Assembly: GCF_033842475.1 (NCBI RefSeq)
Contig: NZ_JAWXYB010000018.1
Location: 2,215,501 to 2,279,500 of the forward strand
From: Acidiphilium acidophilum
GTDB lineage: Bacteria > Pseudomonadota > Alphaproteobacteria > Acetobacterales > Acetobacteraceae
DNA: 64,000 bases
Reading direction: 5' to 3'
Shown here: positions 15,441-35,874 of the stretch, piece by piece
How the letters are laid out: every line of letters begins with the position of its first letter
Numbering within the stretch: position 1 is the stretch's first letter
Notes under the pieces: model-generated
Seen by the model: the letters and a program-made list of their open reading frames with translations, nothing else
What the model was told of the DNA's origin: nothing
Database searches by the model: none
Made by a program: the position numbers and the translations under genes

Positions 15441-15453
15441 CAAGGAGACGGTG

Positions 15454-20882: not shown

Positions 20883-22546
20883 GTAACCGTTCACACCCCC
20901 CGGGTCAGACCGCTACCTGGGCAGGGATTGTGGGCAGCAGATTGTTAGCTCGTGCGGCGGTGATGAGGGCGCAGGCATAGGCCCATGGATCAGTGCCACG
21001 CTTGCGGCAGGTGTCAATGACGCTGAGCGCGGCGGCATAGAACCGGCTCCCTTCATCGGATCGCGTGCCAAAGCTGATGCGCCTCGAGATCACCGCGTGG
21101 CGGAGCGCACGTTCGGCATCATTGTTGGTGGGCGGTAAATCCCGATCGGCGACGAAGGCGACCACTGCGTCCCAGTCATTGAGGATTTCACCTGCCAGCC
21201 CGCGAACTTTCGCATCGATCTCATGGCGATTGCATTGACAGTTCCATTTGATGCTCGCGGTCAGGCGCTTGATGGCGGCGGGGTCGTCGCCGTCATGCAC
21301 GCGCTCGATCAGGCGGCGCAGATCGCGGACCAGATCGCTGCCGAAGCCTGATCCCGCGCCGTAATGCCCCTCTGCCAGCGCGCGGGCCTTACGGATCAGG
21401 TGCGCCAGACATCTCTGGCGGCGTGGATGATCGCGATAGGCACCGTAACCGTCGGTGACGAGCCAACCCAGAAAGGCCTCGCCGATCAGCGCGGCCAATT
21501 CGCAGTGCTTGCGGCTGCCGATCCGATAGACGATCGTGGTTGCCGTCACCGCAACCCAGAGCCACAGCAGACTTGCCTTTTGATACCACGGGGTTTCGTC
21601 GAGATGGACGATGTCAGCCGCACGCACATCTTCGATCAATTGCTCGACCACGGGTTCGCTCGCCAGACCGAATTCGTGAATGCAGCGTTCGATGGTGGCA
21701 ATCCCGAGCTCAACGCCCAGCCAGTCAGCCAGGAATTCAGCGATCTTGACGCGCGAGAGGCGGAAACGCAGCGACAGCGCCGCGATGAAGGTGGCGAGCA
21801 TCGGGCCAACCAGGCAGCGCTCGCTCATCAGCAGGTCGCGCCGGCGCCCCTCGACATGTGAGCACAGTCCGGTTGCGGGGCGTGCGATGGTCTCGTGGCC
21901 ACAGTCGCAGCGTATCGCCAGATAGCAATGTTTCGTGGCTGCGACATGAAGGCTCATGTCGCCGCGGGTGAGTTCAAAGCTCAGATGAGCGCTGACTTGG
22001 CGGCTTTGCGAGACGGTGGAAGATCCGAAAACTGCACGGCATGCGTCGCACGCTGTCGGCGCATGCAGGAGTTCACCGCTGACTATAATCGGCAACCGGC
22101 GCCAAAACCCTTTCGTCCCTGGCCGTTTGCCGGCCGGCTTGGGTCCAGGGTTGCCGGCGGAAGCGTTGCCGCCCGGCGCGGAACCACCACCCCCATCGGT
22201 TTTGTCGTCCCGGTCGGAGCGCTCAGAACTTTGCCCGCTCTTGGTGTTACGCCGGTAGGGATTGTCGCTGGAAGGCGGACGGGAACTGGTTGTTGAATCC
22301 TCGCCGGCATGGTTTGCCAGCGCTCGCGCCAATTCATGTAAATCCCAGGTCAGTTCTTCAAGCTCGACGCGCGACATCGCAGATAAATCAGTACGTTTAA
22401 TGTCTTTCAGGCCGGGGATTCTCTGACGGGGCATCAGAATCGTAGAGTCCGGTTCGGGTGGAAAAGCAAGCCCAGCCTTTCGACATTTTACCGGCCGTTG
22501 GCTAACGCTTCATTCGAGGCAAGAAAGGGGGGGTGTGAATGGTTAC
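20883..22546 (-). mobile_element. IS66-family element, copy 1
   Basis: 1664 bp with terminal inverted repeats GTAACCGTTCACACCCCCC / GTAACCATTCACACCCCCC (one mismatch) and an 8-bp duplication CGTTTGTT (20875-20882 and 22547-22554). GTAA ends and 8-bp duplications are typical of IS66. The single ORF without tnpA/tnpB accessory genes fits the ISBst12 subgroup. It splits the primase gene. Bases 22455-22546 between the gene start and the right end hold the IS promoter region. Confidence 0.95.
20905..22434 (-). CDS. tnpC: IS66-family transposase (copy 1)
   Basis: 509-residue transposase: an N-terminal leucine-zipper-like helix (MSRVELEELTWDLHELARAL), a Ser/Gly-rich linker (SSRPPSSDNPYRR), a zinc-binding region with CDAC, and the DDE catalytic domain with HLDETPWYQK and VTDGYGAYRDHP, followed by PPTNNDAERALRHAV containing the final glutamate. 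The product of copy 2 is identical. Other frames here are shadows. Confidence 0.95.
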   Translation of the reverse strand: MPRQRIPGLKDIKRTDLSAMSRVELEELTWDLHELARALANHAGEDSTTSSRPPSSDNPYRRNTKSGQSSERSDRDDKTDGGGGSAPGGNASAGNPGPKPAGKRPGTKGFWRRLPIIVSGELLHAPTACDACRAVFGSSTVSQSRQVSAHLSFELTRGDMSLHVAATKHCYLAIRCDCGHETIARPATGLCSHVEGRRRDLLMSERCLVGPMLATFIAALSLRFRLSRVKIAEFLADWLGVELGIATIERCIHEFGLASEPVVEQLIEDVRAADIVHLDETPWYQKASLLWLWVAVTATTIVYRIGSRKHCELAALIGEAFLGWLVTDGYGAYRDHPRRQRCLAHLIRKARALAEGHYGAGSGFGSDLVRDLRRLIERVHDGDDPAAIKRLTASIKWNCQCNRHEIDAKVRGLAGEILNDWDAVVAFVADRDLPPTNNDAERALRHAVISRRISFGTRSDEGSRFYAAALSVIDTCRKRGTDPWAYACALITAARANNLLPTIPAQVAV

Positions 22547-22934
22547 CGTTTGTTGCACATATGCGAAGACGACGCCGGCCATTTTCGCTGCATCGATCTT
22601 CTCGGGATTTGTATCGTCGATCAGTACGATGTGATGTGATTTCGATAGCGGTGTAAGGTATAGATGTTCTATATTAGATTGCACTAGACGCTCAATGATA
22701 AACCATGGGATCTTGTCGGGTGAGTAGCCGGGTAGTGTGCCATCTTCCTCTTTATTTAGATGCCAGGTTCGACCGCTCTCCTTTCGACTTGTAACACGGT
22801 AAGCATCAGCTTTGACGGCTCGATGATATATTTGAAAGGCCGTCGCGGCATCGGTTTTCGGAAGGCTGCTCGATTTTATGATTCTAATCAGGCTCATGGG
22901 TCACTCCTGGTGGCTGTCTCATTTCGCTGCCGTT

Positions 22935-22951
22935 TCGCTGCCGCGATGTGA
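22935..22951 (-). promoter_or_regulatory. Degenerate leader palindrome upstream of the primase gene
   Basis: Read on the minus strand: TCACATCGCGGCAGCGA, one perfect half-site (TCACA) and one poor half (AGCGA). It ends 37 bp before the primase start, matching the position of the perfect palindromes in front of other operons of the element. Confidence 0.35.
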
Positions 22952-23006
22952 AGCGCAGGGCCAATTGTCAGTTTTAGTATAACCGGCCCGCGCGGGCTGA
23001 ACCACT

Positions 23007-23023
23007 TCACATCGACGATGTGA
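23007..23023 (+). promoter_or_regulatory. Leader palindrome TCACA-N7-TGTGA before the secreted repeat protein
   Basis: TCACATCGACGATGTGA, a perfect 17-bp palindrome ending 38 bp before ATG 23062. It is followed by a hairpin (GGGGGC 23030-23035, loop GCTCCG, GCCCCC 23042-23047) and then AAGGAGG. The preceding GAACCACT is shared with the copy at 34227. Confidence 0.75.
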
Positions 23024-23061
23024 GATTCCGGGGGCGCTCCGGCCCCCAAGGAGGTTATCAG

Positions 23062-24228
23062 ATGAAATTCAGGACAATCTTGCTGGCGACGGCGTGCGGC
23101 TTGGCGGTGCCCGTGGCCGCCACGGCTGCCGGCCCCACCCCAGCCCCAGCCGCCCCGCTTCAGGTAGGCAAGCCGTCGGTCAAGGTCGTGCCGGTGTTCC
23201 AGGTGACGCCACCGAACCAGTTGCCGCCCGCCAATGAGCTTCCGACCGCGCCGTTTGCGGTAGGATTATATTCCGCGATCCTGGCCCAGGCGAACGACTC
23301 AAATGAACTTCCGACATCGCCGCCGCCGCCGCAATCGGCCTTGCCGTCGTGCTCTGGTTATCAACTCAACAAGTATTCATGGTACTGGCCGTCCGTTACG
23401 CAGTCGCAGACATGGTGGGCGGCGCAGCCTGGCGCGCCGGCCAAGGGGTCTGAGGCTTATACTATCGGGATTGCCATTTCGCACCAGCAACAGGAAGGAT
23501 GGCAGGTAACCGGCGGTTGCGTTGCAGATCCGGAACCCGCCTGTTCCGGCGCGGGATACACAAGTCATTATACCTGGGGCGGCCAATTCAGCGGATGGGG
23601 TGGGTACTGCAATTACCAGCCGCAGCCATCATGCCCTACCGGCGCGGGTTATACAGGTAGCTATAACTGGAACGGATCGAGATGGGTGTCAGGCTGCCAA
23701 TATCAATCGCAGCCGTCATGCCCTACCGGCGCGGGTTACACCGGCAGCTATAGCTGGAATGGTTCCAGTTGGGTCTCAGGCTGCCAGTACCAGGCCCAGC
23801 CGTCATGTCCTGCCCGGTATAGTGGCAGCTATAGCTGGACCGGTGCGGCATGGGTCGATAACTGCGTCGCTCCGCCTGCGCCATCAACTCCGCCCGCTTC
23901 GTCCCCGCCCTCGTCGAACAATGGCGGATCATCGAGTAACGGGGGCGGCGGCGCTGCGTCATCGACACAGTATTATCTATACTTCTCGCGCGGCAATACA
24001 GCGCGTGGGCAGGGCCAGGGCGGTCAACGATATTCAGTATCGCAATCAGACTTCGATCAAGTCGTCGCGAGCGGCAACTTTGTCATCGATTATGCTGATC
24101 CTGCGCACAATGTCGCCAACTCGGCTGACGGCGCATATACATTGCCGCCGGAATGTACGATATTACCCGACGGCGTGGATAGTATTGAGGGCACTACTAT
24201 TCCAGATATAAGCTGCGCACCACGATAA
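23062..24228 (+). CDS. Secreted protein with Cys/Trp-rich tandem repeats
   Basis: A 388-residue exported protein: the signal MKFRTILLATACGLAVPVAA, a Pro-rich segment, then four to five tandem ~29-residue units of the form CPTGAGYTGSYxWNGSxWVSGCQ, then a Gly/Ser-rich linker and a unique C-terminal domain (YYLYFSRGNTARG, FVIDYADPAHN). Regular Cys pairs suggest disulfide-bonded modules outside the cytoplasm. I do not know the family. Its place among pilin, DotA/TraY-type and relaxase genes suggests a surface or mating-contact role. It has the element's leader module and ends at a bidirectional terminator. Confidence 0.7.
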   Translation: MKFRTILLATACGLAVPVAATAAGPTPAPAAPLQVGKPSVKVVPVFQVTPPNQLPPANELPTAPFAVGLYSAILAQANDSNELPTSPPPPQSALPSCSGYQLNKYSWYWPSVTQSQTWWAAQPGAPAKGSEAYTIGIAISHQQQEGWQVTGGCVADPEPACSGAGYTSHYTWGGQFSGWGGYCNYQPQPSCPTGAGYTGSYNWNGSRWVSGCQYQSQPSCPTGAGYTGSYSWNGSSWVSGCQYQAQPSCPARYSGSYSWTGAAWVDNCVAPPAPSTPPASSPPSSNNGGSSSNGGGGAASSTQYYLYFSRGNTARGQGQGGQRYSVSQSDFDQVVASGNFVIDYADPAHNVANSADGAYTLPPECTILPDGVDSIEGTTIPDISCAPR

Positions 24229-24230
24229 GA

Positions 24231-24263
24231 AAAAGGGGGCTCCGATGATGGAGCCCCCTTTTT
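24231..24263. terminator. Bidirectional Rho-independent terminator
   Basis: GGGGGCTCC (24235-24243), a six-base loop, then GGAGCCCCC (24250-24258), extended by A and T runs on either side. It lies between the convergent secreted-repeat and small secreted protein genes and would stop transcription from both. Confidence 0.85.
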
Positions 24264-24285
24264 ACTCCTTTCATTTAGTTGATGA

Positions 24286-24489
24286 TTATTTATGCGCGGC
24301 GGCCTTCCCGGCGGTCGCGATCGACTTCGTTTTGGGGCTGCAATACTTCGCATTGGCGAAACGAGCGCCGGGCGAGGCGCAGGAATGAGCGAACCACTGG
24401 GGCGCGGGGGAGCCCCAACGCGCGAACGCAGGGCTGGTCGCGCCGACGAGGGCTGCAAGGGTGACGATTGAGATGATGACTGCGCGCAT
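24286..24489 (-). CDS. Small secreted protein of unknown function
   Basis: 67 residues: a clear signal peptide (RAVIISIVTLAALVGATSPAFA, cut after AFA) followed by a ~44-residue mature peptide with two cysteines (SCASPGARF, KYCSPKTKS) and a basic C-terminus. AGGAGATATCTC precedes the ATG. No family recognised. It reads away from the GATACC array, so its promoter probably lies inside or beside that array. Confidence 0.55.
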   Translation of the reverse strand: MRAVIISIVTLAALVGATSPAFARWGSPAPQWFAHSCASPGARFANAKYCSPKTKSIATAGKAAAHK

Positions 24490-24520
24490 TGAGATATCTC
24501 CTGATTGCCACCGACGTTGA

Positions 24521-24966
24521 TGGTATCAGTTATATAGTTGGTATCAGAATGGAACGCAATAGCTGATACCATGAATAACCGCCGCTCACGCTGTTGTGAT
24601 ACCATCTAAGCTGGAACGGCGATCGATACGTGATACCGGGTATCTGCCGCGCGGAGATATACCTGATACCATGTACCGGGGCGTATATGGTATCATGTAT
24701 ACGATATGCGATACCATCTATCACGTCGGGTAGGTGGTATCATATACGATCCGGGCAGCGATACCTGATACCATGTACCGCCGAGCCGCAGAGATATTTG
24801 TGATACCAGGTATGGAGTTTTTTATGGTATCATGTACCAGATTACTGATACCACCTAACAGGGTTTTCATGGTATCACCTATCGTTTACCTGATACCATC
24901 TATCAATCTCGTTGAATTATCTTTATATGGTATCAGGAAAACCCGATTGGACTCAAATCATGGTAT
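24521..24966. repeat. Array of ~18 GATACC/GGTATC motifs
   Basis: Motifs of the form TGATACCAT(G/C)TA or its complement occur about every 20-35 bp in both orientations, for example at 24564, 24597, 24665, 24688, 24736, 24766, 24825, 24869, 24891, 24927 and 24961. The ATG of the downstream RHH gene lies inside the last one. Layout next to a ribbon-helix-helix gene resembles plasmid partition centromeres or multi-site operators. No other gene is seen in this stretch. Confidence 0.8.
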
Positions 24967-25190
24967 CATATATAGCGAATCGCGTGGGCAGAAAACGGAT
25001 CAACGACGAGTTCATGAGCGCGAGATTCCCCGCCGGCACCTTTGCGCGCATCGACGCAAATCTGCGCGAGAGAGAGGCGCGGTCTGATTTTATTCGGCTT
25101 GCGGTCGATGCCGAGATCGCCCGGCGCGAGGGCGCTTCCGGCCCGCCACCAGCGAAAAAGAAGCCCGCCGCCCCGTCCGACCAGGGCTGA
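24960..25190 (+). CDS. Ribbon-helix-helix (CopG/Arc-like) DNA-binding protein
   Basis: 76 residues. The segment RINDEFMSARFPAGTFARID forms the ribbon strand and first helix, and ARSDFIRLAVDAEIARRE the second helix, a typical RHH plan; a Pro/Lys-rich tail follows. RHH dimers bind short repeated sites, and the gene lies at the end of the GATACC array with its start codon embedded in one motif, so it very likely binds the array and represses itself. An in-frame start at 24912 would add residues encoded by a further motif copy. Confidence 0.7.
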   Translation: MVSYIANRVGRKRINDEFMSARFPAGTFARIDANLREREARSDFIRLAVDAEIARREGASGPPPAKKKPAAPSDQG

Positions 25191-25216
25191 TCCCGCCCGG
25201 CCCGGCGCGCCGCATT

Positions 25217-25233
25217 TCACATCGATACCGTGA
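25217..25233 (+). promoter_or_regulatory. Leader palindrome before the DotA/TraY-type gene
   Basis: TCACATCGATACCGTGA, one mismatch from TCACA-N7-TGTGA, ending 38 bp before ATG 25272. A hairpin follows (CCCGCC 25241-25246, loop ACATCC, GGCGGG 25253-25258), then AGGAGG. The palindrome also contains one GATACC motif, so both regulatory signals of the element meet here. Confidence 0.7.
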
Positions 25234-25271
25234 CCATCGACCCGCCACATCCGGCGGGCAGGAGGTGGTTT

Positions 25272-27431
25272 ATGGGCAGTTTCGTGATTCCGAGCGGAGA
25301 TTACGTCAACGCAATGTTCCTGATGATCTTTGGTCCCATCTGGACCGCGATCGTCAACTCGGGTCTCAATTTCGGCGCGGTCGGCAGTGCCGGGGGTGGC
25401 GTCTTCGGGCCTGCCTTCATGGTTTACAACCTGGCGATAATGGGCCTGACGCTTTTCTACATCGTCAAGATTGTGCTCGAAGGCGTCGTTGGCACGGCGT
25501 ACCATGGCGAATGGCTGGGCAAAAGTTTCCATGGCTTTTTCACGCCGATGCGCGTCATTATCATGCTCGCGCTGATCGCTCCGGTTTCTTCTGGCTTTTC
25601 AATCTCGCAGATCATCGTTTTGTGGACCGCCGGGCAGGCAATCGCAGTCGCGGACGGCATATCGAATACTATGCTAATCTCAATATTAAAGACAGGTTTA
25701 GTCTTCAATCCACAGATTATGCCGTCGTCGCGCCAAGTCGCCTCGTCTCTGCTACAAGACCTGGTATGCGTTGACACATATAATAGCGGCGCGTCTGGCG
25801 GGCCTGCCCTCATGACGTCAAGTAGTACCGGGTCCGGGACTACACATGGTGTTGAATTTGGTGGCAGACCTGGCACGAATATTTCACCGTCTGCTTGCGG
25901 CACGATCATCGTATCTTCCGCAAGTCAGCCGAAATCATCGGCGGAAATCAACGGAATCAACGCGATGATGCCGATATTGAATCCTGTCGCGCTCAAAATA
26001 ACGAACGGAGCCCTGGGCCAGCCGACGCAAAACACCTCGACCGGATCAGTATTATCTGGCTCTACTTCCGGCATTCCAAGTAACGCAGTAAGTCTCGCAG
26101 CCCAGGCGTATAGCGAAGCGGTGCAATCTGCGGTCGCGAGCCAGGTCACCGCCGCCAACTCCGGACTAACGAATTCGTGGTCGACCGCGCTCCAAAATGA
26201 CGGGTTCGGCGCGCTCGGGAGCTTCCAGATTCAGGTGTCATCGCTCGACCAGAAAATCGCTGACTTCAGCGCTGCGCAGCCCGATATCACCGGCCCGGCG
26301 ACCGCAGACCTACCGGCGGGCTATGGGTATCAGCAGACCAGCGCAGCCGCTATGTCATACATCGAAAATGACAATCAGTTAGCCGCAACGCCCGGCTCGC
26401 TGGCCGGCCAGATCACAAACCCGCTTGGAAACCTGAAGTCGGGATCGCTCATGGCGCGAATAATCGACCCCGTTTTGATCCGCCTGAATGGCTCGATACT
26501 AAGCGATGTCAAGTCGTTGTCGTCCTCAACAAGTAACCCGATTGGTGCTCTGCAAACGCTCGGCATTACGCTGATGGTATCCGGCCTGACGGCTTACTCG
26601 ATACTGTTGCTCGGCGTTGGTTCACTTGGGGCTGCCACTGGCAACCTCGTGGGCAATGCTGCGGGTGCAGGTAAAGCCGCGAGTTTCGTCATAGGGTTTA
26701 TCAAGCCCGTTGCACTTATGCTGATCGCGGGACCGATCTTGGCGGGCGGAATACTTGCATACGTCATTCCTGCGATGCTCTATATTATGTACACCTTTGC
26801 GGTCATTGGTTGGGTCGCGGCTGTATTTGTTGGGGTCGTCGGCGCACCGCTGTGGGCTGCGAGTCATGCAGTCCCGGATGGTGAAGGGTTTGTACCGGCT
26901 GGTGCGTCGCAAGGTTATAAGTTGCTGCTCTCAATATTCGCAAAGCCCGCGCTAATTGTATTCGGGTTCTTCGCCGCAATGTTGTTGTTCAGCGCGGGCG
27001 AATACCTGATCAACAAGACTTTCATTTTCGTTGCGAACGGCGTTCTACAGTCGAGCATGGGCGGTAGTGTCGCGCAAGGTGTTGCGGGGGCGCTCATGTC
27101 GCTAATTGGGACGTTGATATATGTCGGGATTCTTGTCGTGGTATACTGGAAGCTCGGCGAGTGGAGCTTTGGACTTGTCAATCTCGTGCCGGATCGGGCG
27201 CTCGATTGGATCGGGTTGAACGACATCTCGATGTCCGAGGAGGGCGTACATGGGGAGGTGTACGGCGGGGTGGTGAGCCATACGCGGACTGTCCAGGGGG
27301 CGGTCGTGCAACCGCTTCCTGAGCGCGCGGGTGGTGGCGGCAATGGGAACGAAAGCGGGGAAACTGGCAGCAACGCTACACCCGCCGCCAAGACGCTTGA
27401 GACCGACGTTCTTCCTGAACGGAATACATGA
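25272..27431 (+). CDS. DotA/TraY-family type IVB secretion membrane protein
   Basis: A 719-residue polytopic inner-membrane protein. The N-terminal third matches the DotA/TraY plan: a helix pair, then GEWLGKSFHGFFTPMRVIIMLALIAP, then SGFSISQIIVLWTAGQAIAVAD, a block conserved in DotA. A ~250-residue hydrophilic, Ser/Gly-rich (probably periplasmic) region follows, then a C-terminal membrane cluster (GILAYVIPAMLYIMYTFAVIGW, GAPLWAASHAVPDGEGF) and a charged tail. In IncI plasmids TraY is needed for transfer and is the target of entry exclusion. Here it stands alone, with no other Dot/Icm genes in the element. ATG 25272 has AGGAGG 7 bp upstream. Confidence 0.8.
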   Translation: MGSFVIPSGDYVNAMFLMIFGPIWTAIVNSGLNFGAVGSAGGGVFGPAFMVYNLAIMGLTLFYIVKIVLEGVVGTAYHGEWLGKSFHGFFTPMRVIIMLALIAPVSSGFSISQIIVLWTAGQAIAVADGISNTMLISILKTGLVFNPQIMPSSRQVASSLLQDLVCVDTYNSGASGGPALMTSSSTGSGTTHGVEFGGRPGTNISPSACGTIIVSSASQPKSSAEINGINAMMPILNPVALKITNGALGQPTQNTSTGSVLSGSTSGIPSNAVSLAAQAYSEAVQSAVASQVTAANSGLTNSWSTALQNDGFGALGSFQIQVSSLDQKIADFSAAQPDITGPATADLPAGYGYQQTSAAAMSYIENDNQLAATPGSLAGQITNPLGNLKSGSLMARIIDPVLIRLNGSILSDVKSLSSSTSNPIGALQTLGITLMVSGLTAYSILLLGVGSLGAATGNLVGNAAGAGKAASFVIGFIKPVALMLIAGPILAGGILAYVIPAMLYIMYTFAVIGWVAAVFVGVVGAPLWAASHAVPDGEGFVPAGASQGYKLLLSIFAKPALIVFGFFAAMLLFSAGEYLINKTFIFVANGVLQSSMGGSVAQGVAGALMSLIGTLIYVGILVVVYWKLGEWSFGLVNLVPDRALDWIGLNDISMSEEGVHGEVYGGVVSHTRTVQGAVVQPLPERAGGGGNGNESGETGSNATPAAKTLETDVLPERNT

Positions 27432-27437
27432 CGCAAA

Positions 27438-27465
27438 CCGGCGTCGCTAAAGAAAGCGACGCCGG
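27438..27465. terminator. Hairpin between convergent genes
   Basis: CCGGCGTCGCT (27438-27448), loop AAAGAA, AGCGACGCCGG (27455-27465): a perfect 11-bp stem. It overlaps the stop of the leftward gene and follows the dotA-like stop. There is no T run, so termination may be weak or Rho-aided. Confidence 0.5.
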
Positions 27466-27833
27466 AGGCTATTCTGGATCGTAACCGACTTATCGAGCAA
27501 GGCCCTGTCTCTGGCCGCGCTCTTTTTTGTCGCCTCGATGACCTCAAGCACCTTCTCGGCACTGGCATCTCTGTCTGACATCAAAAATTCAAGGCCGGCC
27601 TTGAACGCGACGGCGTCAGCATGCTCGTCCTGGGCGACGTATGCCAACTCCGCCAGGGCTGCTCGCCGCCAGTCGTCGCCCTTTTTCCATTCGTTCCGCA
27701 CCTGCTCAAGCTGCGACTGTGCTGCCCGCAGATCGCCCCGAGCGCGTTGGAGCGCCGCACTGTTGCCAGCAAATTCGGCGTCATAGCTGACCTGGGGCTT
27801 GCCCCGCGAATCATAACTTGTTCGAAACATCAC
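27447..27833 (-). CDS. Hypothetical coiled-coil protein
   Basis: 128 residues, mostly helical and highly charged, with a likely coiled coil (ALQRARGDLRAAQSQLEQVRN) and no signal or membrane segment. Not recognised. It is the third gene of the leftward relaxase operon (relaxase, small membrane protein, this gene), which suggests a mobilisation accessory role. Either of the adjacent ATG codons (27833, 27830) could be used. Confidence 0.55.
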   Translation of the reverse strand: MMFRTSYDSRGKPQVSYDAEFAGNSAALQRARGDLRAAQSQLEQVRNEWKKGDDWRRAALAELAYVAQDEHADAVAFKAGLEFLMSDRDASAEKVLEVIEATKKSAARDRALLDKSVTIQNSLRRRFL

Positions 27834-27903
27834 GCGACCTCATTTGATTTCAGCACTATATCAAGTTACAGTGCAGTTGTCAACATAATTCCACAAGTTA
27901 AAG

Positions 27904-28260
27904 TCAAAACTGGCCGGGCCGGCGTCCCAAAAGTAGTCCAGCAACGCCCATGACAAGCGGAATGGTTGCGGGGACAAGTAGCGACGCAAGCTCATAATCC
28001 CGTGTGATAAGCACAAAGGCGACGACAAGGCCATATAGCGCGAACGAAAGCAGAATTTTATTGTAACACTCGACCGCCGCGATCCGCATCTGCGGGTGCT
28101 GTTTCTCGCCGACGGGGGCGATCAAGGTTTTTGACATGGTGGTGAGGCGGCTTTTAGTGTCTCGACCGGCGGCGATGAAAGGGTTGAAAAACCGCATTTC
28201 GGCCCGGGCTGCGCGGCGGAAGAGGCCGGGTTTGCGGGGTTTCGAGGGTGATGTTGTCAT
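27904..28260 (-). CDS. Small two-helix membrane protein
   Basis: 118 residues: a basic N-terminal half (SPSKPRKPGLFRRAARAEMRFF) and two C-terminal transmembrane helices (ILLSFALYGLVVAFVLIT, LLVPATIPLVMGVAGLLLG). Not recognised; size and layout resemble small accessory subunits of type IV secretion systems, but this is only an analogy. It has its own leader module: palindrome, hairpin GCCCCGC-GCCGT-GCGGGGC and AAAGGAGAT before the ATG. Confidence 0.55.
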   Translation of the reverse strand: MTTSPSKPRKPGLFRRAARAEMRFFNPFIAAGRDTKSRLTTMSKTLIAPVGEKQHPQMRIAAVECYNKILLSFALYGLVVAFVLITRDYELASLLVPATIPLVMGVAGLLLGRRPGQF

Positions 28261-28303
28261 GGTGTATCTCCTTTATGCCCCGCACGGCGCGGGGCTTCGA
28301 TGA

Positions 28304-28320
28304 TCACACTCGTGATGTGA
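28304..28320 (-). promoter_or_regulatory. Leader palindrome before the small membrane protein gene
   Basis: TCACACTCGTGATGTGA (plus strand), perfect half-sites with a 7-bp spacer, 43 bp before the start at 28260. A GC-rich hairpin (arms GCCCCGC/GCGGGGC, about 28277-28296) and AAAGGAGAT follow in the reading direction. It lies between the relaxase stop and this gene, so the gene has its own control. Confidence 0.7.
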
Positions 28321-28420
28321 AGTCCGACCCGATTCTCCGCCCGCCCGCCCGCCCGGCGGCGGCGGCGGCGGCGGCGGCTGTGGCTCCTTTCTTCCTTGCC
28401 GCGTCCCGACGGACGCGGCA

Positions 28421-31207
28421 TCACCGAAGGCGCACCCGCGCTCGGTCCCGATCGACCCCGCCGACCACCACCGGCGCTACCACCGGCTCGGCCAGCTTCT
28501 CCGCCGCCGCCTGGCGCAATTCCGTCAGCCTTTCCCGATCGACCTCGCCCGGCCCGTCAGTCGCCCCGAGCGCCGTTTTTCTTTCGGCCCACCCCGCCCA
28601 CGACTTTGAAAGTCTGTTGATATTATCAGTAATGATCGAAAGCTGATACCGCTCGCGGCTGCACGCGACGTATGCGCTCTCTGCCGTTGCGACTCTCGAT
28701 GATTCCCCGGCGACGATCACGCTGTCGACCGTTCTTCCCTGGCTCAAATGCGTCGTCAGCGCCCAGCCTCGGTCGACTGCCACCCCTTTCCGCCGATCGA
28801 TCGTCGTCAGTCGCCCGTCATCCAACCGCACCGCCGCCGTTCCCTTCGCCTTGTCAACCTCCTCGACCACCCCCCCGGCCCCGTTGGTAATTCTTTCGTT
28901 CCCCCGCCCGATTGGCTCCCTGAACACCACCCGATCGCCTCCCGCGAGCGTCATGGCCCGCCGCGTATACACTCGCGCGCCCGCCACCGGCTTCCATCGT
29001 TTCTCGGCCCCAGCATCATCAACAAGTATAACCTCGCCGCCAGCAACGTCACGGACAGTGTAATCCACAAGCTGCTTGTTCTCATAAAGTCGCACGATCA
29101 TCCCGGATTTATACGTGACCGCCCGCGATAGTGCTTCTTTCGTCGCATCGACTTTATCAAGCGCGATGATCTCGATTTCGTCGCCGCTGATCTCACGTTG
29201 TAGTTTTAGACCAGCACGGATGAGGTCGTTGACTTGCTGGCGGACCGCATTTGTGCCGCTGAGTACAAGGGTCGATGCGCGATCTTCTGGGTTTTTACTA
29301 AGATATGCTTGCGCTGTAGCGGCGGCAATGGCCGCGCGACGCTCCATGGTGGTCGGAAGTGGCTTGCCGTCGGCCCCGCGTTGCGCGGTCGGAACTGCGA
29401 CTTCAGACATAAATGGGCGGGCGGCGATTACGGCCTCGGCTGCCCGGCCAGACGCGAACGCGCTGGCGATCTTCAAGAGATTAGGGTCTTTTTGTCGTTG
29501 AATCTCGCTGATCCGTGCGGTTTGGAGGGAGCCAGACTCAATCATCTGACCGAAAGGTGACCCGGCCGCGACGCTTGCAAGCTGGCGCGGGTCGCCAACG
29601 AAAATCGCTCGATCGCCCGCCGATTCGATCTGTGCGATCAGACGTTCCATGTCTGATGATCCGACCATGCCAGACTCGTCGATCAGGATGAGGCGGCCCC
29701 CGCCCGGTGGCGGTTTTGCGAGGAAACTTGCGATGGTCGTGCTGTCGCAGCCCGCCGACCTCAACTCGCGCGCGGCGCTGGTCGATGGCGCGAGTCCGAT
29801 GATTTCGAACCCGCCGGCGCGGGCCGCTTGAACGAGGGCGTTCATCGCGGTGGTTTTCCCCGCGCCCGCCGCGCCAACAATTCCGATATACCGATCACTT
29901 GTGGTGAGCGCGAGGCTGATCGCGGAACGCTGGCCCTGCCCATACTGCCACCCCTGGTCGACCTCACGCGCGGCGATGAATCGGGCGGCTTCGTCGGCCT
30001 CGGTAATCGGCGCAATCTGCTCGCGTCCGGCACGCGCGGCGGCCAGGATCAGTGACTCTCTATATAAGGAGTCCTCCGTGGCCAGCCGCCCGCCGCCCGC
30101 ATCGATCAACCCGGCTTCACCTGCCGCGATCGCCTGGTCGATCTCGTCGATCATCGCCGCGCCGATGCCGAACGTGAGCGCTTCGAGCCGGACCGAGTCT
30201 CTCGGAAAGACGCTTGCCCGCTCGCTCAAATGCCGCGCCGCCGATCGAACTGCCTCGCCCGCCTTCGATTCCGGGGCTGGCATGGTCCCGCGTTTGATGG
30301 CTGCTCGCGCCGCAAACGTCAGCCCCAGCCCCAGCGCCGCCGACCGCTCGCGCCATTCTTGCTGCTGATCTTGTTGGGCCAGGCCGGATTTCCCTTGTCG
30401 CGTTTTCAGATTCGCGGCGGTTCGCTGGGCAGCGGTGCTGTCGTCGCGGTCGAGGCCGGCATCTTCGAGCGCTTCGTCGATTTGGACCTTGCGCTGGCTA
30501 AAATGCTCGATCGCATCTGCCGGGATACCAGCGATCTCGAAACCGTCCCCCGTTGGCTCGATCCCGTACCCGAGCCTGACCAGTGACCTTGCCAGCGCAC
30601 TTTTATATATACTGTCCGCCAGCCTCATCCGAACAGCTTGCTCACCCCAGTCCAGATCGACTGCGCGTAATCCATCCGGCCCCCGTGTCGCATTTATGAT
30701 AATACAATGTGAGTGTAGCTGCGGGTCAGCCCGGCCATCAACTGATCGCGCATCTTCGTGTCTGAAAATGGCAGCCGCAATACCGCCACCCGATCGCGTT
30801 TTTACTCCATTTTTACCGAACCGCGACTTTGCGACTTCCCGCTCGACGAATTTTAATGCCTCTTTTACTGCTGCATCATGCGCGATTGCGATGCGCTCGT
30901 CGCCACCGATGAGGCACATCATTGAGACTGACTTCGGCGCGCTCAGGGTGACGTCATGGCCCGCGCGGCGATCTGACCTTGTTTTACCGAGATCCTCAGC
31001 GCCGATTCGCCCCTCTAGCGCCGCGAGGAAATCTTGATCTTCGACCGCGCCGACCAGACCGCTTTCGGCTGCCAGCCCGCCGATCCACTGCGACGGTGCG
31101 CCACTATTATAGTAACCATGTTTTGCCTCGGGCCTGGGCTTTTTATGTTTACAATAGCGAACGATTTTCTTTGCGTCTTTGGCTGATAGCGGTTTTGTCG
31201 ACAACAT
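28421..31207 (-). CDS. MobF-family conjugative relaxase/helicase (TrwC/TraI type)
   Basis: Nicks the transfer origin and pilots the single strand during conjugation. From start 31207 (928 residues, MLSTKPLSAKDAKKIVRYC) Tyr18 lies where TrwC has its first nicking tyrosine, and a Tyr-Tyr pair follows at ~32-33. GHDVTLSAPKSVSMM (~84-98) is MobF motif; the three metal histidines are in FRHEDAR and DPQLHSHC (about 150, 165, 167). The C-terminal helicase half has Walker A GAAGAGKTTAM, ILIDESGMVGS and a UvrD-like end (STHLSQGRTVDSVIV). GGAG sits 9 bp before ATG 31207; an in-frame ATG at 31222 overlaps it. Intact. Confidence 0.93.
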   Translation of the reverse strand: MLSTKPLSAKDAKKIVRYCKHKKPRPEAKHGYYNSGAPSQWIGGLAAESGLVGAVEDQDFLAALEGRIGAEDLGKTRSDRRAGHDVTLSAPKSVSMMCLIGGDERIAIAHDAAVKEALKFVEREVAKSRFGKNGVKTRSGGGIAAAIFRHEDARSVDGRADPQLHSHCIIINATRGPDGLRAVDLDWGEQAVRMRLADSIYKSALARSLVRLGYGIEPTGDGFEIAGIPADAIEHFSQRKVQIDEALEDAGLDRDDSTAAQRTAANLKTRQGKSGLAQQDQQQEWRERSAALGLGLTFAARAAIKRGTMPAPESKAGEAVRSAARHLSERASVFPRDSVRLEALTFGIGAAMIDEIDQAIAAGEAGLIDAGGGRLATEDSLYRESLILAAARAGREQIAPITEADEAARFIAAREVDQGWQYGQGQRSAISLALTTSDRYIGIVGAAGAGKTTAMNALVQAARAGGFEIIGLAPSTSAARELRSAGCDSTTIASFLAKPPPGGGRLILIDESGMVGSSDMERLIAQIESAGDRAIFVGDPRQLASVAAGSPFGQMIESGSLQTARISEIQRQKDPNLLKIASAFASGRAAEAVIAARPFMSEVAVPTAQRGADGKPLPTTMERRAAIAAATAQAYLSKNPEDRASTLVLSGTNAVRQQVNDLIRAGLKLQREISGDEIEIIALDKVDATKEALSRAVTYKSGMIVRLYENKQLVDYTVRDVAGGEVILVDDAGAEKRWKPVAGARVYTRRAMTLAGGDRVVFREPIGRGNERITNGAGGVVEEVDKAKGTAAVRLDDGRLTTIDRRKGVAVDRGWALTTHLSQGRTVDSVIVAGESSRVATAESAYVACSRERYQLSIITDNINRLSKSWAGWAERKTALGATDGPGEVDRERLTELRQAAAEKLAEPVVAPVVVGGVDRDRARVRLR

Positions 31208-31223
31208 TTTGATGATCTCCATC

Positions 31224-31269
31224 AGGCCGGCACCGCGCCGGCCTGCTGAAAATCACATCATCTTTGTGA
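31224..31269 (-). promoter_or_regulatory. Leader module of the relaxase operon (palindrome plus hairpin)
   Basis: Palindrome TCACATCATCTTTGTGA at 31253-31269, with perfect half-sites and a 7-bp spacer. In the reading direction it is followed by a perfect 8-bp hairpin (AGGCCGGC, loop of 5, GCCGGCCT, 31224-31244), then TGGAGAT and ATG 31207. Confidence 0.7.
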
Positions 31270-31308
31270 AATCAGCCCGCCTTTTCCCCGCCGCCGCCCG
31301 CCACGATT

Positions 31309-31325
31309 TCACATGCCTGCTGTCT
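31309..31325 (+). promoter_or_regulatory. Half-conserved leader palindrome before the small membrane protein at 31368
   Basis: TCACATGCCTGCTGTCT: left half perfect, right half TGTCT instead of TGTGA. It ends 42 bp before ATG 31368, the same distance as the perfect copies. No strong hairpin follows. Confidence 0.4.
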
Positions 31326-31367
31326 CCATTAGCCCGGCATCCCGTCGAGGCGGAAGGAGAACAGCAA

Positions 31368-31634
31368 ATGACTATCGAATCATCAACAAGTAGACGAGCG
31401 ATCAGCCGCAATACAACAAAGGCGGTCGATCATGTGGAAGCGCAACATTATCTGATCAATAGCGTAATGGCGCTGGGGACCGGGCTGATATTCAGCTATA
31501 TCCCGGCGCATCTTCATGGTGTGACTTACCATCTCGATGATCGCGCGGCGGCGATGGCGTTTAGCGGGCTGGCGGTTGTGTTCGGGATCATGGGGCTGGC
31601 GAAGGCGCGGCGGGCCAGGCTGGCGGGGAGATAA
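31368..31634 (+). CDS. Small membrane protein of unknown function
   Basis: 88 residues: a polar N-terminus (TIESSTSRRAISRNTTKAVD), then two transmembrane helices (YLINSVMALGTGLIFSYI, AMAFSGLAVVFGIMGLAK) and a basic tail. Not recognised. GAAGGAGA lies just before ATG 31368. It lies divergent to the relaxase and ahead of the prepilin gene, 72 bp apart, and the prepilin has a separate leader module. Confidence 0.5.
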   Translation: MTIESSTSRRAISRNTTKAVDHVEAQHYLINSVMALGTGLIFSYIPAHLHGVTYHLDDRAAAMAFSGLAVVFGIMGLAKARRARLAGR

Positions 31635-31647
31635 AGGCGGGCGGATT

Positions 31648-31664
31648 TCACAAAATTGGTGTGA
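31648..31664 (+). promoter_or_regulatory. Leader palindrome before the prepilin gene
   Basis: TCACAAAATTGGTGTGA, perfect half-sites with a 7-bp spacer, ending 41 bp before ATG 31706. Then comes a hairpin with 8-bp arms (GCCCGTCG 31674-31681, CGGCGGGC 31686-31693, one G-T pair) and GGAGGG. Confidence 0.7.
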
Positions 31665-31705
31665 TCGACAGAAGCCCGTCGAGGTCGGCGGGCATGGAGG
31701 GTAAG

Positions 31706-32341
31706 ATGAGATTGATAAGAGCTAAAAAGGGTGTGACCGGAATCGAGTATGGGATGTTGCTCGCGCTGATCGGCGCGGTGATCCTCGTGCCGGTCATATC
31801 AACCGGTGCGAGTTTGCAACAAATATTTTGCAATATGGGTGGGGCAATAGGGGGCGCGGCGTGCCCAGATGCAAGTGCCGCCCCGCCGGCTACGCTGCCG
31901 ATTACGTTCCCGCAGACGAGCGTCGCAAATATCGGTCCCAGCGATCAACTATTTGCGACATCAACCGGCAGTCTCGACGGCGTTATTATCAGTCCGGCGG
32001 CAGCATCTATTTATCCGATCGGCCCTTTCGGCACGTCGTATAGTTCGACCGGCAACGAATCTATTGCGACGTTCGGTAATGGAACAGGATCGCCCTGGGG
32101 CGCGATTGTTGACAATGCGCCGGCGCTCGATGCACTCAAAAGTGCGTGCAGCGCTGGCGTCGTCCCGGCGACGTCCGTTCATCAGGTACCCGCCGGGCCG
32201 CCGGGCGGGGTGGCGATTGTTACGTCGATTGGCGACACGCCGACGAATGAGCTTGATTCGCTACAGTATGGTACAGCGACCGCAGGCTCAAATTTTTCAT
32301 CGAGCGATTCAGTCGTGACGTGCGCCGCACCGGCAGGCTGA
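31706..32341 (+). CDS. Flp-type (type IVb) prepilin-like protein with long C-terminal domain
   Basis: 211 residues. The N-terminus MRLIRAKKG / VTGIEYGMLLALIGAVI is a textbook Flp prepilin site: cleavage after Gly9, with Glu at +5 and Tyr at +6, followed by the hydrophobic assembly helix. True Flp pilins are only 50-80 residues; here ~170 polar, Ser/Thr/Gly-rich residues with four cysteines (IFCNMGG, AACPDA, KSACSAG, VVTCAAP) follow, more like a minor pilin or pseudopilin. No pilus ATPase or prepilin peptidase is present in the element, so it would rely on host or helper machinery. A strong terminator follows. Confidence 0.75.
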   Translation: MRLIRAKKGVTGIEYGMLLALIGAVILVPVISTGASLQQIFCNMGGAIGGAACPDASAAPPATLPITFPQTSVANIGPSDQLFATSTGSLDGVIISPAAASIYPIGPFGTSYSSTGNESIATFGNGTGSPWGAIVDNAPALDALKSACSAGVVPATSVHQVPAGPPGGVAIVTSIGDTPTNELDSLQYGTATAGSNFSSSDSVVTCAAPAG

Positions 32342-32356
32342 TCCCGGCTCCGCACC

Positions 32357-32389
32357 AAAAAGGCCGGGTCGCCCCCGGCCTTTTTTTTT
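32357..32389 (+). terminator. Rho-independent terminator after the prepilin gene
   Basis: GGCCGGG (32362-32368), loop of 5, CCCGGCC (32374-32380), preceded by an A run and followed by nine T residues. Strong, 16 bp after the stop. Confidence 0.9.
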
Positions 32390-32405
32390 GAGCCCAACTT
32401 TCAAT

Positions 32406-32504
32406 CACGAGATAATCGCAACATCATCGCAAGCTGATCGCGAGATCATGACAAGATGATCGCGAGATCATCGCAAGGTCATCGCAAGATAATCGCGAGA
32501 TCGA
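32406..32504. repeat. Nine tandem 11-bp repeats (consensus CGCRAGATCAT)
   Basis: Nine consecutive 11-bp units from 32406 to 32504, for example CGCGAGATCAT (32439-32449 and 32461-32471), CGCAAGGTCAT (32472-32482), CGCAAGATAAT (32483-32493). The unit is about one helical turn, so a protein could bind each on the same DNA face. The remaining bases up to the IS at 32612 hold no gene I can support. Confidence 0.8.
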
Positions 32505-32611
32505 CCGGCGCAGCGCCAGACCAACCTTCATCGCCGGAGGCGCAAGCCAATCTTCCTTCAGCCGTAGGCCCCGCCCGACCTTTAGTCCGGACACGGATGC
32601 GTTTGTGTGGA

Positions 32612-33964
32612 GGTGGTGTAACCTGACGTCTGGAAATTCATTTTGGGTTGGGAGTTGGTGCCCTTGCCGGGGCATGCCCCGGCAAGGGCTGTTCATTCTG
32701 GTATTCCATGCAGTTGTTCACACCAACATGGAGACCGATGAATGGACGCCAAAAAGGATACGATTATCGAGGCACTTTTGGAACATCTGATCGAAAACGG
32801 CGCAGGCGATATCGCCACGGTATTTGCCAGGACCTTCGAACTCGCCATGCAGATCGAGCGCGAACGCTTCCTCCACGCCAGTCACTACGAGCGCAACCCC
32901 GATCGTCAGGGTTACGCCAATGGCTACAAGCCCAAGCGGATCGATACCCCGGCCGGGTCGATCACCGTCGATGTCCCCAAAACCGCCGGTCACGTGGGCG
33001 AACCCTTCTACCCACAGTCCCTCGAACGCGGCCGACGCTCGGTCCGCGCCGTCATGGTCGCCGTCGCCGAAATGTACATCAAAGGCGTCTCCACCCGCGA
33101 CGTCGAGGCCGTCATGCGCGAATTCGGCATCGAAAGCCTCTCCTCCGCTCAGGTCAGCCGCGCCAGCAAGCTGCTCGATGACGAACTCGCCGCCTGGCGC
33201 ACCCGACCCCTCGCCGAGATCCGCTACCTCATCCTCGACGCCAGATATGAAAAAATGCGCGATAATGGCGTCGTCCGCGATGCCGCCGTGCTCTCGGCCA
33301 TCGGCATCGGACCCGATGAACGCCGCCGTGTCCTCGGCGTCTCGGTCGCCCTTTCCGAGGCCGAAGTCCATTGGCGTGCCTTCCTCGAAAGCCTCCATCA
33401 GCGTGGCCTGCGAGGCGTCGAATTCATCGTCTCCGATGACCATGCCGGATTGCACGCCGCACGCCGCGCCGTCTTCGGCGCCGCACACTGGCAACGATGC
33501 CAGTTCCACCTCGCCCAAAACGCCATCCACCACGCCCCCAACCACGCCATCCGCAAACGCATCGGCGCAGAACTCCGGACCGTCTGGAACGCAAATTCCC
33601 TCGCCGCTGCCCAGATCGCTCTCACAACCCTCGTCAATGCCTATCGCGACACCGCACCAAAGCTCGCCGATTGGCTCGAACGAAATATCCCCGAAGGCCT
33701 CACCGTCTTCACACTGCCAGAACCCCACCAGCGCCGGCTTCGCACTTCCAACCCCATGGAACGCGGCATCCAGCAGGAACTCAAACGCCGCACCACCAAA
33801 ATCAGGGTCTTCCCCAACGAAGCCTCCCTCGAACGCCTCGTCAGCGCCGTCCTCGTCGAAATCGATGAAAAATGGGCCGCCGACACCAAGGGCTACATCA
33901 AGTGGGACTACCAGGATGCCTGACCCCCGCTCGCCCTATTTTCCAGACATCAGGTTGCTCAATC
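32612..33964 (+). mobile_element. IS256-family element, copy C
   Basis: Intact 1353-bp copy, identical in layout to copies B and D, with an 8-bp duplication TGTGTGGA (32604-32611 and 33965-33972). It sits between the 11-bp repeats and the ParA operon, in non-coding DNA. Confidence 0.96.
32742..33923 (+). CDS. tnpA: IS256-family transposase (copy C)
   Basis: 393 residues, identical to the copy B product, with all three acidic regions and the CQFH motif intact. Read the entry at 18706 for domain details. Confidence 0.96.
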   Translation: MDAKKDTIIEALLEHLIENGAGDIATVFARTFELAMQIERERFLHASHYERNPDRQGYANGYKPKRIDTPAGSITVDVPKTAGHVGEPFYPQSLERGRRSVRAVMVAVAEMYIKGVSTRDVEAVMREFGIESLSSAQVSRASKLLDDELAAWRTRPLAEIRYLILDARYEKMRDNGVVRDAAVLSAIGIGPDERRRVLGVSVALSEAEVHWRAFLESLHQRGLRGVEFIVSDDHAGLHAARRAVFGAAHWQRCQFHLAQNAIHHAPNHAIRKRIGAELRTVWNANSLAAAQIALTTLVNAYRDTAPKLADWLERNIPEGLTVFTLPEPHQRRLRTSNPMERGIQQELKRRTTKIRVFPNEASLERLVSAVLVEIDEKWAADTKGYIKWDYQDA

Positions 33965-33972
33965 TGTGTGGA

Positions 33973-34226
33973 TTATCAATAGTACATCCCGCAGGGATGT
34001 ACGTCTCTATGAATCAATACGAGATGAGCCGTTTTTTATCACAGGTGATCCCCATGACGACCGGTGGTCATCGAATACGGGCGGGGTCAGGCTGTAATCG
34101 GGGGATTTCGAGTTGATGTTGGTGGGTAGACGGTCGAAATCGAGGTGATGGACGGCGTAAACCGGTGAAGATGACCGATCTGTAGCCGCATCTGGGTCGG
34201 CGTAGGGCGAAAAACGGCGAACCACT
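33973..34226. other. Intergenic region with a 9-bp hairpin
   Basis: Continuation of the non-coding region split by IS256 copy C. A perfect inverted repeat GTACATCCC-GCA-GGGATGTAC lies at 33982-34002. No gene is supported. Being just ahead of the ParA-type mobilisation operon and behind the 11-bp repeats, it is a candidate cis-acting site (partition site or transfer origin), without proof. Confidence 0.4.
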
Positions 34227-34243
34227 TCACATCAACCCTGTGA
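34227..34243 (+). promoter_or_regulatory. Leader palindrome before the ParA operon
   Basis: TCACATCAACCCTGTGA, perfect half-sites with a 7-bp spacer, ending 32 bp before ATG 34276. The preceding GAACCACT is identical to that before 23007. The following hairpin is weak compared with the other leaders; ACAGGAGAT is the ribosome-binding site. Confidence 0.65.
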
Positions 34244-34275: not shown

Positions 34276-34596
34276 ATGGCAATTGAGGAGCTACGCGGCC
34301 CACCACCCGAACCCGATATCCGCGCGGTCGTAATCAGACACTATCACGACATCAGGGCCGCGCGCGCCGGAGGGTGGAGATGGTCGGCAATCGGGATCGT
34401 CATCGGGTTGCCCGGTGAGGCAATCCGGCGGGCGTTTGAGCGAGTTGATCGCCGGATTGTCGCCGGCCTGCTGACCCCCCCTGCTGCACCACCACCATCG
34501 GCGGGGCTGAAGGTTGCCAGGCCCGCCGCGCTGGCCGCCGCCGCCCGCCCGTTCGGGTCCAATTTTGAAGATCTTACTCAGGGAACAAATTCATGA
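34276..34596 (+). CDS. Hypothetical small protein, first gene of the ParA operon
   Basis: 106 residues. The central part (AVVIRHYHDIRAARAGGWRWSAIG, IGLPGEAIRRAFERVDRR) looks like a helix-turn-helix with an extra helix; the C-terminus is Pro/Ala-rich. Not recognised. It overlaps the ParA-like gene by ATGA (34593-34596) and follows the leader palindrome, so it is co-expressed with the ATPase; a DNA-binding partner of the ATPase is a reasonable guess. Confidence 0.55.
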   Translation: MAIEELRGPPPEPDIRAVVIRHYHDIRAARAGGWRWSAIGIVIGLPGEAIRRAFERVDRRIVAGLLTPPAAPPPSAGLKVARPAALAAAARPFGSNFEDLTQGTNS

Positions 34597-35312
34597 AGAA
34601 ACTCCTACTGGTTCATGGCGATAAAGGCGGGGTCGGCAAATCGACACTTGCCTCAGCCTTGATCGACCTCGCGCTGGCCGGCGGTCCAATATGCGTGGTT
34701 GAAGGAGACATAAAAGTTGCCGATGTCGCCCGCCGCTTCAGTGGCATTCCGGACGTGCTTGGCTTGGTGATCGATCTCGCGCGACCGGACGGTTCAGAAG
34801 ATGCGATTATCGGGCTCTTCGAAAAGATCGAAGCGGCGGGTGCGCCAGAGATGATCGTCGTCAATCTTCCTGCGGGCGCGTCAAGTACGATCGACGCTCA
34901 AGCTCAAATCCTTCATGCCGCGTCGCGCGAAATCGGATACGAAATCAGGGTGGCCTGGATGATTGGGGCGGGCGCGGACTCGGCGCGGCTGGCCGGTGAA
35001 TCGGCGATATGCCGCGTAGCCGACAAGAAGATCGCAGTGTTCAATGCTGCTCTCGGCGAAATTGCAAAATCGGTCTGGATGAATCATCCGGCGCGCGACG
35101 CATGGCTATCAAGCGGCGGCCTGGAAACAATCATGCCGGCGCTCGCAAGTCGCGTGATGACCGAGGTACGAGACCGGCCCGGTCGATACACTGATCTCAT
35201 CGCGCCAACATCGGGACTGTCTGTTATTTCGAGGCAGATAATCAAAAATTGGATGTCGGCAATCGCCGCCGGCCCCGGCGGGCTGATGTTCCATGATGGA
35301 GATGAAAAATGA
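34593..35312 (+). CDS. ParA/MinD-like (VirC1-type) ATPase
   Basis: 239 residues with a deviant Walker A motif HGDKGGVGKST (about 8-18), the signature of ParA/MinD ATPases. EGDIKVADVAR follows the first switch region, and MIVVNLPAGAS is the Walker B-like strand. Such proteins either partition plasmids or bring relaxosomes to the pole (VirC1). The neighbour is a TraM-like protein rather than ParB, which leans toward mobilisation. It overlaps genes on both sides by 4 bp, giving a compact three-gene operon. Confidence 0.8.
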   Translation: MKKLLLVHGDKGGVGKSTLASALIDLALAGGPICVVEGDIKVADVARRFSGIPDVLGLVIDLARPDGSEDAIIGLFEKIEAAGAPEMIVVNLPAGASSTIDAQAQILHAASREIGYEIRVAWMIGAGADSARLAGESAICRVADKKIAVFNAALGEIAKSVWMNHPARDAWLSSGGLETIMPALASRVMTEVRDRPGRYTDLIAPTSGLSVISRQIIKNWMSAIAAGPGGLMFHDGDEK

Positions 35313-35874
35313 TCACACCCCCGCGCTATCCAATAACCGAGCCGATCCCACCAGATCATATATACGAAGATGGTCAAGACGAACTTCTCGAAGACCACCC
35401 CGACCTCTTAAAGATCGCGAATCGGTACGGCATCAAAGACGATGATCCCGTCTGGCTTCTCGTGCAGGCCGTCGCGGACGCGGAACGCGCCGCCTCGGGC
35501 GCTACCGGGGCGATCATCGCCCTCGAAGCCGCCCGCCAATTGCTCGACTCGATGCCAGCCCGGATCGAAGAATCCGCCGCGTCCGCCGCCGCGCGCCTTG
35601 AGGGCGATCTATCGACATGGGGAACGACCGCCGCCGCGATAGTATCCGCCCGCCTAAAATCCATGCTCATCGACCTGATGCCCGAGGTCGAGCGTCACTC
35701 GAAAGCCTCGATGAACGCGCTATCAACAATAGTCGATACACTCTCACTCGATATAACCTCAATCGAAGCAAAGATGAGGGCCGCATTTGCGAGCGCGCAA
35801 AGTCGATACCGCGATGATCTCGCGGATACCGCCCGCACTTTAATACAAGCTGAACTGGTGAAGACAACAAGGCG

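Follow-up and report, generated by a model that had tools for sequence, protein, structure and literature searches.

Repeated directional site and leader hairpin upstream of the transfer genes of an integrated MOBF element in Acidiphilium acidophilum

The site repeated upstream of the transfer genes

The stretch of DNA analysed here (the window, 64 kb of the 3.64-Mb contig NZ_JAWXYB010000018.1) comes from an Acidiphilium-group genome, that of Acidiphilium acidophilum (4.16 Mb, 21 contigs). It harbors a 26-kb MOBF element, which is integrated at tRNA-Arg(ccg), bounded by an exact 49-bp direct repeat and interrupted by several insertion sequence (IS) copies. In this element, a module comprising a short site and, in most cases, a leader hairpin ahead of the Shine-Dalgarno sequence (SD) precedes the relaxase gene, a lone DotA/TraY gene, a pilin-like gene, small membrane genes and a ParA-like block. 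As judged from sequence comparisons, this module is real, non-random, element-specific and evolutionarily constrained.

The sole relative of the element that we detected belongs to Acidiphilium sp. STC_15 (JAQTXO010000189.1); its relaxase is 82-83% identical to that of the window element, and its DNA 76%. This relative is known in fragments, namely a 6.16-kb contig (L031 = G382:C296) and a second contig (C337, L086) with orthologous stretches, and it has sites before the same five genes as the window element. The sites, the leader hairpins (z, fold stability against dinucleotide shuffles) and the genes that they precede are as follows.

22935-22951 (-): weak site TCACATCGCGGCAGCGA for gene 22502-22897(-), read from sequence
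23004-23023 (+): site ACTTCACATCGACGATGTGA for gene 23062-24228
23030-23047 (+): leader hairpin with a 6-bp stem (fold, z -1.9)
23062-24228 (+): gene with a putative signal peptide and ~29-aa repeats, no assigned function
25214-25233 (+): site ATTTCACATCGATACCGTGA for the DotA/TraY gene
25241-25258 (+): leader hairpin CCCGCC..GGCGGG (z -2.3)
25272-27431 (+): DotA/TraY family protein, lone subunit of an I-type type IV secretion system (T4SS) (TIGR04346, 279.8 bits, cutoff 100)
27904-28260 (-): small putative membrane protein (open reading frame, ORF), with no family match in the profile scan
28277-28295 (-): leader hairpin GCCCCGC..GCGGGGC, kept in the relative (z -2.6)
28304-28323 (-): site ACTTCACATCACGAGTGTGA for gene 27904-28260(-), conserved in the relative
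28421-31207 (-): MOBF (TrwC) relaxase-helicase (PF08751, 233 bits)
31223-31245 (-): relaxase leader hairpin CAGGCCGGC..GCCGGCCTG (z -4.6)
31253-31272 (-): site ATTTCACAAAGATGATGTGA for the relaxase gene, conserved in the relative
31306-31325 (+): variant site ATTTCACATGCCTGCTGTCT for gene 31368-31634; the relative has ACTTCACACTACGGCTGTCC
31332-31351 (+): weaker leader hairpin (fold), a perfect stem in the relative
31368-31634 (+): small putative membrane protein (ORF)
31645-31664 (+): site ATTTCACAAAATTGGTGTGA for the pilin-like gene, conserved in the relative
31674-31693 (+): leader hairpin GCCCGTCG..CGGCGGGC, kept in the relative (z -3.3)
31706-32341 (+): Flp/Fap-pilin-like protein (PF04964, 25.2 bits, under the Pfam cutoff of 32.2)
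34224-34243 (+): site ACTTCACATCAACCCTGTGA for the 34276/ParA-like/35309 genes, with no leader hairpin; the relative keeps the left half, and the right half is changed
34276-35878 (+): three genes, 34276-34596, ParA-like 34593-35312 and 35309-35878, the last one cut by IS66
41015-41034 (+): weak half-site ATTTCACATCTGACAGTGCA between the AlpA-like gene and 41106, off the AYTTCACA-N8-GT consensus

A sequence-only reading of the window had described the site as the palindrome TCACA-N7-TGTGA, and it placed the copies correctly: they are exact at 23007, 28304, 31253, 31648 and 34227, carry one mismatch at 25217, two at 22935 and 31309 and, by inspection, three at 41018. The five exact copies compare with 0.04 expected in the window. 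The frequency of the palindrome in the rest of the chromosome had been set beforehand as the check on enrichment in the element only, and this enrichment was borne out, as the whole 4.16-Mb genome contains the palindrome five times, always inside the element, and the reversed-pattern control not at all.

The motif alignment (12 sites, seven from the window and five from STC_15) led us to reject the symmetric palindrome as the conserved unit, because the consensus across these orthologous sites is directional. The sequence A-Y-T-T-C-A-C-A occurs in 12/12 sites and is followed, exactly eight nucleotides on, by a G in 12/12 and a T in 11/12; after these two columns come mostly GA, AT-rich bases and then a C. 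In other words, columns -2 to +5 and +14/+15 vary little or not at all, with constant spacing, and by this alignment the upstream half and its AY flank are nearly invariant, while the downstream half is variable.

The directional motif AYTTCACA-N8-GT has seven matches genome-wide, all of them in the element, each before a gene and oriented toward its start codon (random placement, P about 4e-16, a guide only, since the motif was refined on these same sites). The genome of the relative has four matches on the orthologous contig, and a fifth one (G382:C431), which we discounted as it lies inside a coding sequence. Among 299 family genomes, no other one has more than one AYTTCACA-N7-TGTGA site, save for one perfect palindrome counted on both strands.

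The distance of 32-45 nt between site and start codon, in the right orientation, that the sequence-only reading had reported holds for the six strong cases, and the span to the ATG over all leaders is 32-51 nt, which contains the hairpin and the SD. The chance of falling 50-75 nt before an SD and a start is about 1-2% per site. The weak 22935 site acts as TTTCACATCGCGGCAGCGA, read on the minus strand, and the ATG at 22897 follows it by about 37 nt. Neither the integrase gene nor the ribbon-helix-helix (RHH) gene, 27833(-) or the ATPase/helix-turn-helix (HTH)/AlpA-like genes carry the module. That nearly every operon carries it was thus an overstatement: only the transfer/ParA block at 22.9-35.9 kb does, and the regulatory and maintenance genes (integrase, RHH and the ATPase/HTH/AlpA-like group) have no strong site, the half-site 41015 adjoining the AlpA-like gene.

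Over 64 nt, the leader of the relaxase gene has 77% likeness to that of the pilin-like gene, which is consistent with propagation of the leader as a unit. The same likeness could be taken to mean that a mobile repeat without function was copied about and that its copies, the leaders, precede genes by chance. This explanation is extremely improbable, because most copies keep the core alone, at a constant distance from and orientation to start codons, and because orthologous sites are retained in a relative with 76% DNA identity.

Leader hairpins and the presumed transcription start

A GC-rich hairpin lies between the site and the SD in the five leaders named by the sequence-only reading (23007, 25217, 28304, 31253 and 31648), with arms of 6, 6, 7, 9 and 8 bp, respectively, i.e., 6-9 bp and not the 6-8 bp first given. 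Six of the seven leaders have a hairpin, that of the 31306 leader being weaker and the 34224 leader having none. The hairpins start about 6-9 nt past the site, and their mean z is -2.6, as compared to -0.94 in 52 control leaders (Mann-Whitney p = 0.0007). The relative retains 4/4 comparable hairpins, and in that of the relaxase leader the two arms are altered in a matched way, from CAGGCCGGC..GCCGGCCTG to GGTCCGGC..GCTGGACC in the relative; anchored on the unchanged loop, this change amounts to two compensatory pairs and one G.U. An automatic pair count on the gapped alignment scored no compensatory pairs in this leader, and the covariation claim is one of a single hairpin, by the loop-anchored reading. 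Together, the z-scores, the persistence in the relative and the one matched two-arm change support the view, also held by the sequence-only reading, that the leader RNA structure is under selection.

Could the whole module act as RNA? A 5-bp UCACA-N7-UGUGA stem-loop and the GC hairpin might form a two-part leader RNA, serving in antitermination of the nut/put type or as a site for an RNA-binding protein or a small RNA. The motif is always gene-oriented and is usually followed by the second structured hairpin at a fixed distance, and AYUUCACA bears a loose likeness to the 3' part of lambda boxA. This explanation is nevertheless quite unlikely for several reasons. First, the left arm is invariant, and the right-arm changes seen in the relative disrupt pairing and are not compensated (A.A at three sites; at least two pairs in R31309 and R34227). 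Second, the hairpin loops are all unlike one another, which leaves no boxB-like code; the conserved loop of lambda boxB next to boxA has no counterpart, since the loops differ among all leaders. Third, the Rfam search returned no match. Fourth, a site inside the transcript would call for a promoter upstream of it, yet the 35 bp upstream have no -10-like AT-rich stretch (at 15-35 bp upstream, the bins have a GC content of 73-77%, and the AT-rich stretch is the site itself), and the divergent sites 31253 and 31309 are just 39 bp apart, a space into which two complete promoters would need to fit.

No sigma-70-type promoter (-35/-10 hexamers at 16-18 bp) was found at the sites in a consensus scan. 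An 11/12 sigma-70 promoter, conserved in the relative, occurs at 27883-27855(-) before the module-free gene 27447-27833(-). On the aligned sites, the sigma-70, extended -10, extracytoplasmic function (ECF)-type spacing and lambda boxA patterns were also tried by eye, and none of them accommodates the conserved columns together with a hairpin that is transcribed intact. As the SD and the hairpin need to be transcribed to act, transcription most likely starts within the 6-9 nt between the site and the hairpin, which would place the site roughly over -28 to -8.

This promoter context bears on the proposal that the palindrome is only an operator, to which a KorA-like element repressor binds over ordinary host promoters, leaving the transfer genes on unless repressed. 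The near-palindrome is very close to the start codon, and such regulons are classical in plasmids (PMC2680271). We find this proposal unlikely, because 12/12 sites are directional, the upstream half and the AY flank being their most conserved part, and because of the negative promoter scan at the sites.

Proposed regulon and other features of the element

We propose, with a probability of roughly 0.54, that the module is a dispersed directional promoter-operator cassette, and that the transfer genes form a single regulon under one DNA-binding protein, which acts in trans and is most likely a product of the element. The coordinated control of the transfer genes that the sequence-only reading had suggested is supported, and the pattern of sites indicates that one regulator probably switches these genes on or off together. 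The cassette would comprise, in that order, AYTTCACA-N8-GTGA, 6-9 nt, the leader hairpin, the SD and the start codon. A dimer of the regulator, or a complex of the regulator with RNA polymerase, would bind the site, and transcription would begin in the few bases between the site and the hairpin, giving the mRNA a 5' stem-loop that could protect its end while the SD stays open. The regulator would hold the transfer genes off until induction, which may then let the element remodel and borrow an I-type transfer channel, for instance that of the co-resident plasmid-like contig C1 (181 kb, L032), which carries DotA, DotI and DotG homologs. Since the site is directional and no -35/-10 consensus accompanies it, control by an activator or by promoter specificity appears somewhat more likely than simple repression.

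The comparison with the relative is also informative about the presumed regulator. In STC_15, the three strong right halves (relaxase, pilin-like and 28260 genes) all read GCAGTGA, versus TGTGA in the window, with differing flanks and hairpins, and the variant site 31306 retains its own right half in both elements (CTGTCT / CTGTCC). Simple drift would not readily explain the same right-half change three times, and the natural reading of these sequences is that the right halves track a shared binding factor with a shifted preference.

Several points weigh against the proposed regulon. A two-sided near-palindrome over the presumed start region also suits a repressor. No informative family match was obtained for the candidate regulators, i.e., the RHH (24960), HTH (39732) and AlpA-like (40286) proteins, and the single-sequence fold predicted for the HTH protein is unreliable and uninformative (pLDDT 43). 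Furthermore, the parallel right-half change comes from one lineage, represented by one fragmentary relative, and local homogenisation of the copies could explain it.

A bolder version of the proposal, which we regard as speculative and unlikely, is that AYTTCACA-N8-GTGA defines a self-contained, element-specific promoter class with an element-encoded specificity factor, that a 5' hairpin is built into most promoters of the class, that sites and factor change together between lineages (TGTGA to GCAGTGA), and that the regulon switches the element to hijack an I-type channel via its own DotA/TraY.

The other features of the element are as follows.

15308-15356 (+): attL core, 49-bp direct repeat at the 3' end of tRNA-Arg(ccg) 15279-15355 (tRNA by ARAGORN), exact repeat of 41505-41553
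15451-16503: tyrosine integrase
24960: RHH gene
39732 and 40286: HTH gene and AlpA-like gene, within the ATPase/HTH/AlpA-like group on the other strand
41505-41553 (+): attR core, right end of the element, exact repeat of the attL core

An IS66-type insertion splits one gene into 35309-35878 and 37527-37775, which form a single uninterrupted frame in the relative, and Mutator-type IS copies lie head to head and nested inside the element at 17837-20567. Two repeat arrays were also noticed. At least 16 TGATACC / GGTATCA repeats, in both orientations, occupy 24517-24975, just upstream of the RHH gene 24960 (eight matches elsewhere in the window), and are possibly a centromere or operator for the RHH and ParA-like proteins, or iterons. 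Eight TGATCATTTTA / TAAAATGATCA repeats, in both orientations, lie in the AT-rich gap 17087-17380 (none elsewhere in the window) and are a candidate origin or operator array.

Beyond STC_15, no relative of the element was found in viral contigs, and PLSDB has only distant ones. The motif is absent from A. multivorum pACMV3 and from G223, whose relaxases are about 42-47% identical. The regions upstream of mobF in pACMV3 (L074 20560-21020) and G223 (L021 1000-1450) share a different sequence, ACACACAACCGCACC, perhaps an origin of transfer (oriT) or another operator. In the Acidiphilium-group genome G096, two copies of the att sequence are 17.9 kb apart (G096:C41:12951-30854, L087), which suggests a different element, devoid of the motif, at the same tRNA-Arg; a motif match on another contig of this genome (G096:C40) was discounted, as it appears coding by inspection.

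Comparison with known systems

In the IncP-1 plasmid RK2, one or two plasmid regulators, KorA and KorB, read short palindromes before several operons; the KorA operator overlaps the -10 region, and a spread of the IncP-1 promoter regions "as preformed units" has been proposed (PMC2680271). Similarly, the window element has the same short operator before several of its operons, and this operator is rare elsewhere. The sequences differ, since the KorA/KorB operators are TTTAGCTAAA / TTTAGC(C/G)GCTAAA as compared to AYTTCACA-N8-GT here. In addition, korAp has clear -35/-10 boxes, no leader hairpins are described there, and the site here is directional. The element proteins scanned, which covered the small ORFs in part, gave no Pfam/NCBIfam match to KorA or KorB.

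In the AcaCD/SGI1 system, a dispersed site precedes the transfer genes of an integrated mobilizable element, at promoters without -35 boxes (PMC5058578, PMC5389848), and the TraN, TraH and TraG proteins of SGI1 itself remodel the helper pore and evade exclusion (PMC5389848). Like SGI1, the window element is integrated (att repeats) and has a relaxase and one T4SS pore subunit, with no complete T4SS of its own; DotA/TraY was the only T4SS protein found among the element proteins scanned (Pfam/NCBIfam). The AcaCD core, GCCCAAAATGGGC, is unrelated to the motif found here. The AcaCD arrangement is of class II: the site extends to about -35, and transcription begins 22-30 nt ahead of most start codons (PMC5058578). 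Given the presumed start position, the 32-51 nt between site and ATG, which hairpin and SD fill, would leave no room for it here.

This likeness raises the question of whether a regulator from a helper plasmid reads the sites, as IncC AcaCD reads those of SGI1. The element appears mobilizable and not self-transmissible, its lone T4SS subunit recalls SGI1 traN/H/G (PMC5389848), and C1, with its Dot homologs, is at hand as a candidate helper. However, C1 has no AYTTCACA-N8-GT, and TCAC-N9-GTGA matches it once, within a 900-aa ORF; as the transfer regulator of a helper should have sites on the helper itself, we consider a helper-encoded regulator very unlikely.

Stem-loops at the 5' end are mRNA stabilisers in the ompA, papA and aprE leaders (titles cited in PMC3997798). 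The hairpins described here are likewise stable, near the presumed 5' end and upstream of the SD. They differ from one another across a whole regulon, at a fixed distance from a regulatory site, and their stabilising role is putative.

TraY is the exclusion target in IncI plasmids (ExcA-TraY), as discussed in PMC12365149. The window element also encodes a TraY/DotA family protein, but as a lone subunit on an integrated element. By analogy with SGI1, this lone subunit, together with the I-type T4SS locus on C1, suggests channel borrowing, in which DotA/TraY would be swapped into the helper channel. We know of no described case of an SGI1-like strategy for I-type (Dot/Icm-like) channels.

Our literature search found no matching layout. 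Nevertheless, the view that no described system resembles it went too far: regulons built on operators spread over a whole element are classical (KorA/KorB, AcaCD/SGI1), and IncP-1 promoters have been proposed to spread as preformed units (PMC2680271). The module is a variant of known mobile-element regulons, and its combined layout is unusual. In acidophilic alphaproteobacteria, it would give a so far undescribed family of integrated MOBF elements a compact regulon, in which a dispersed cassette couples a transcriptional site to a leader hairpin, and the parallel three-site change in the relative offers a handle on the identity of the regulator and on the co-evolution of the regulon of a mobile element.

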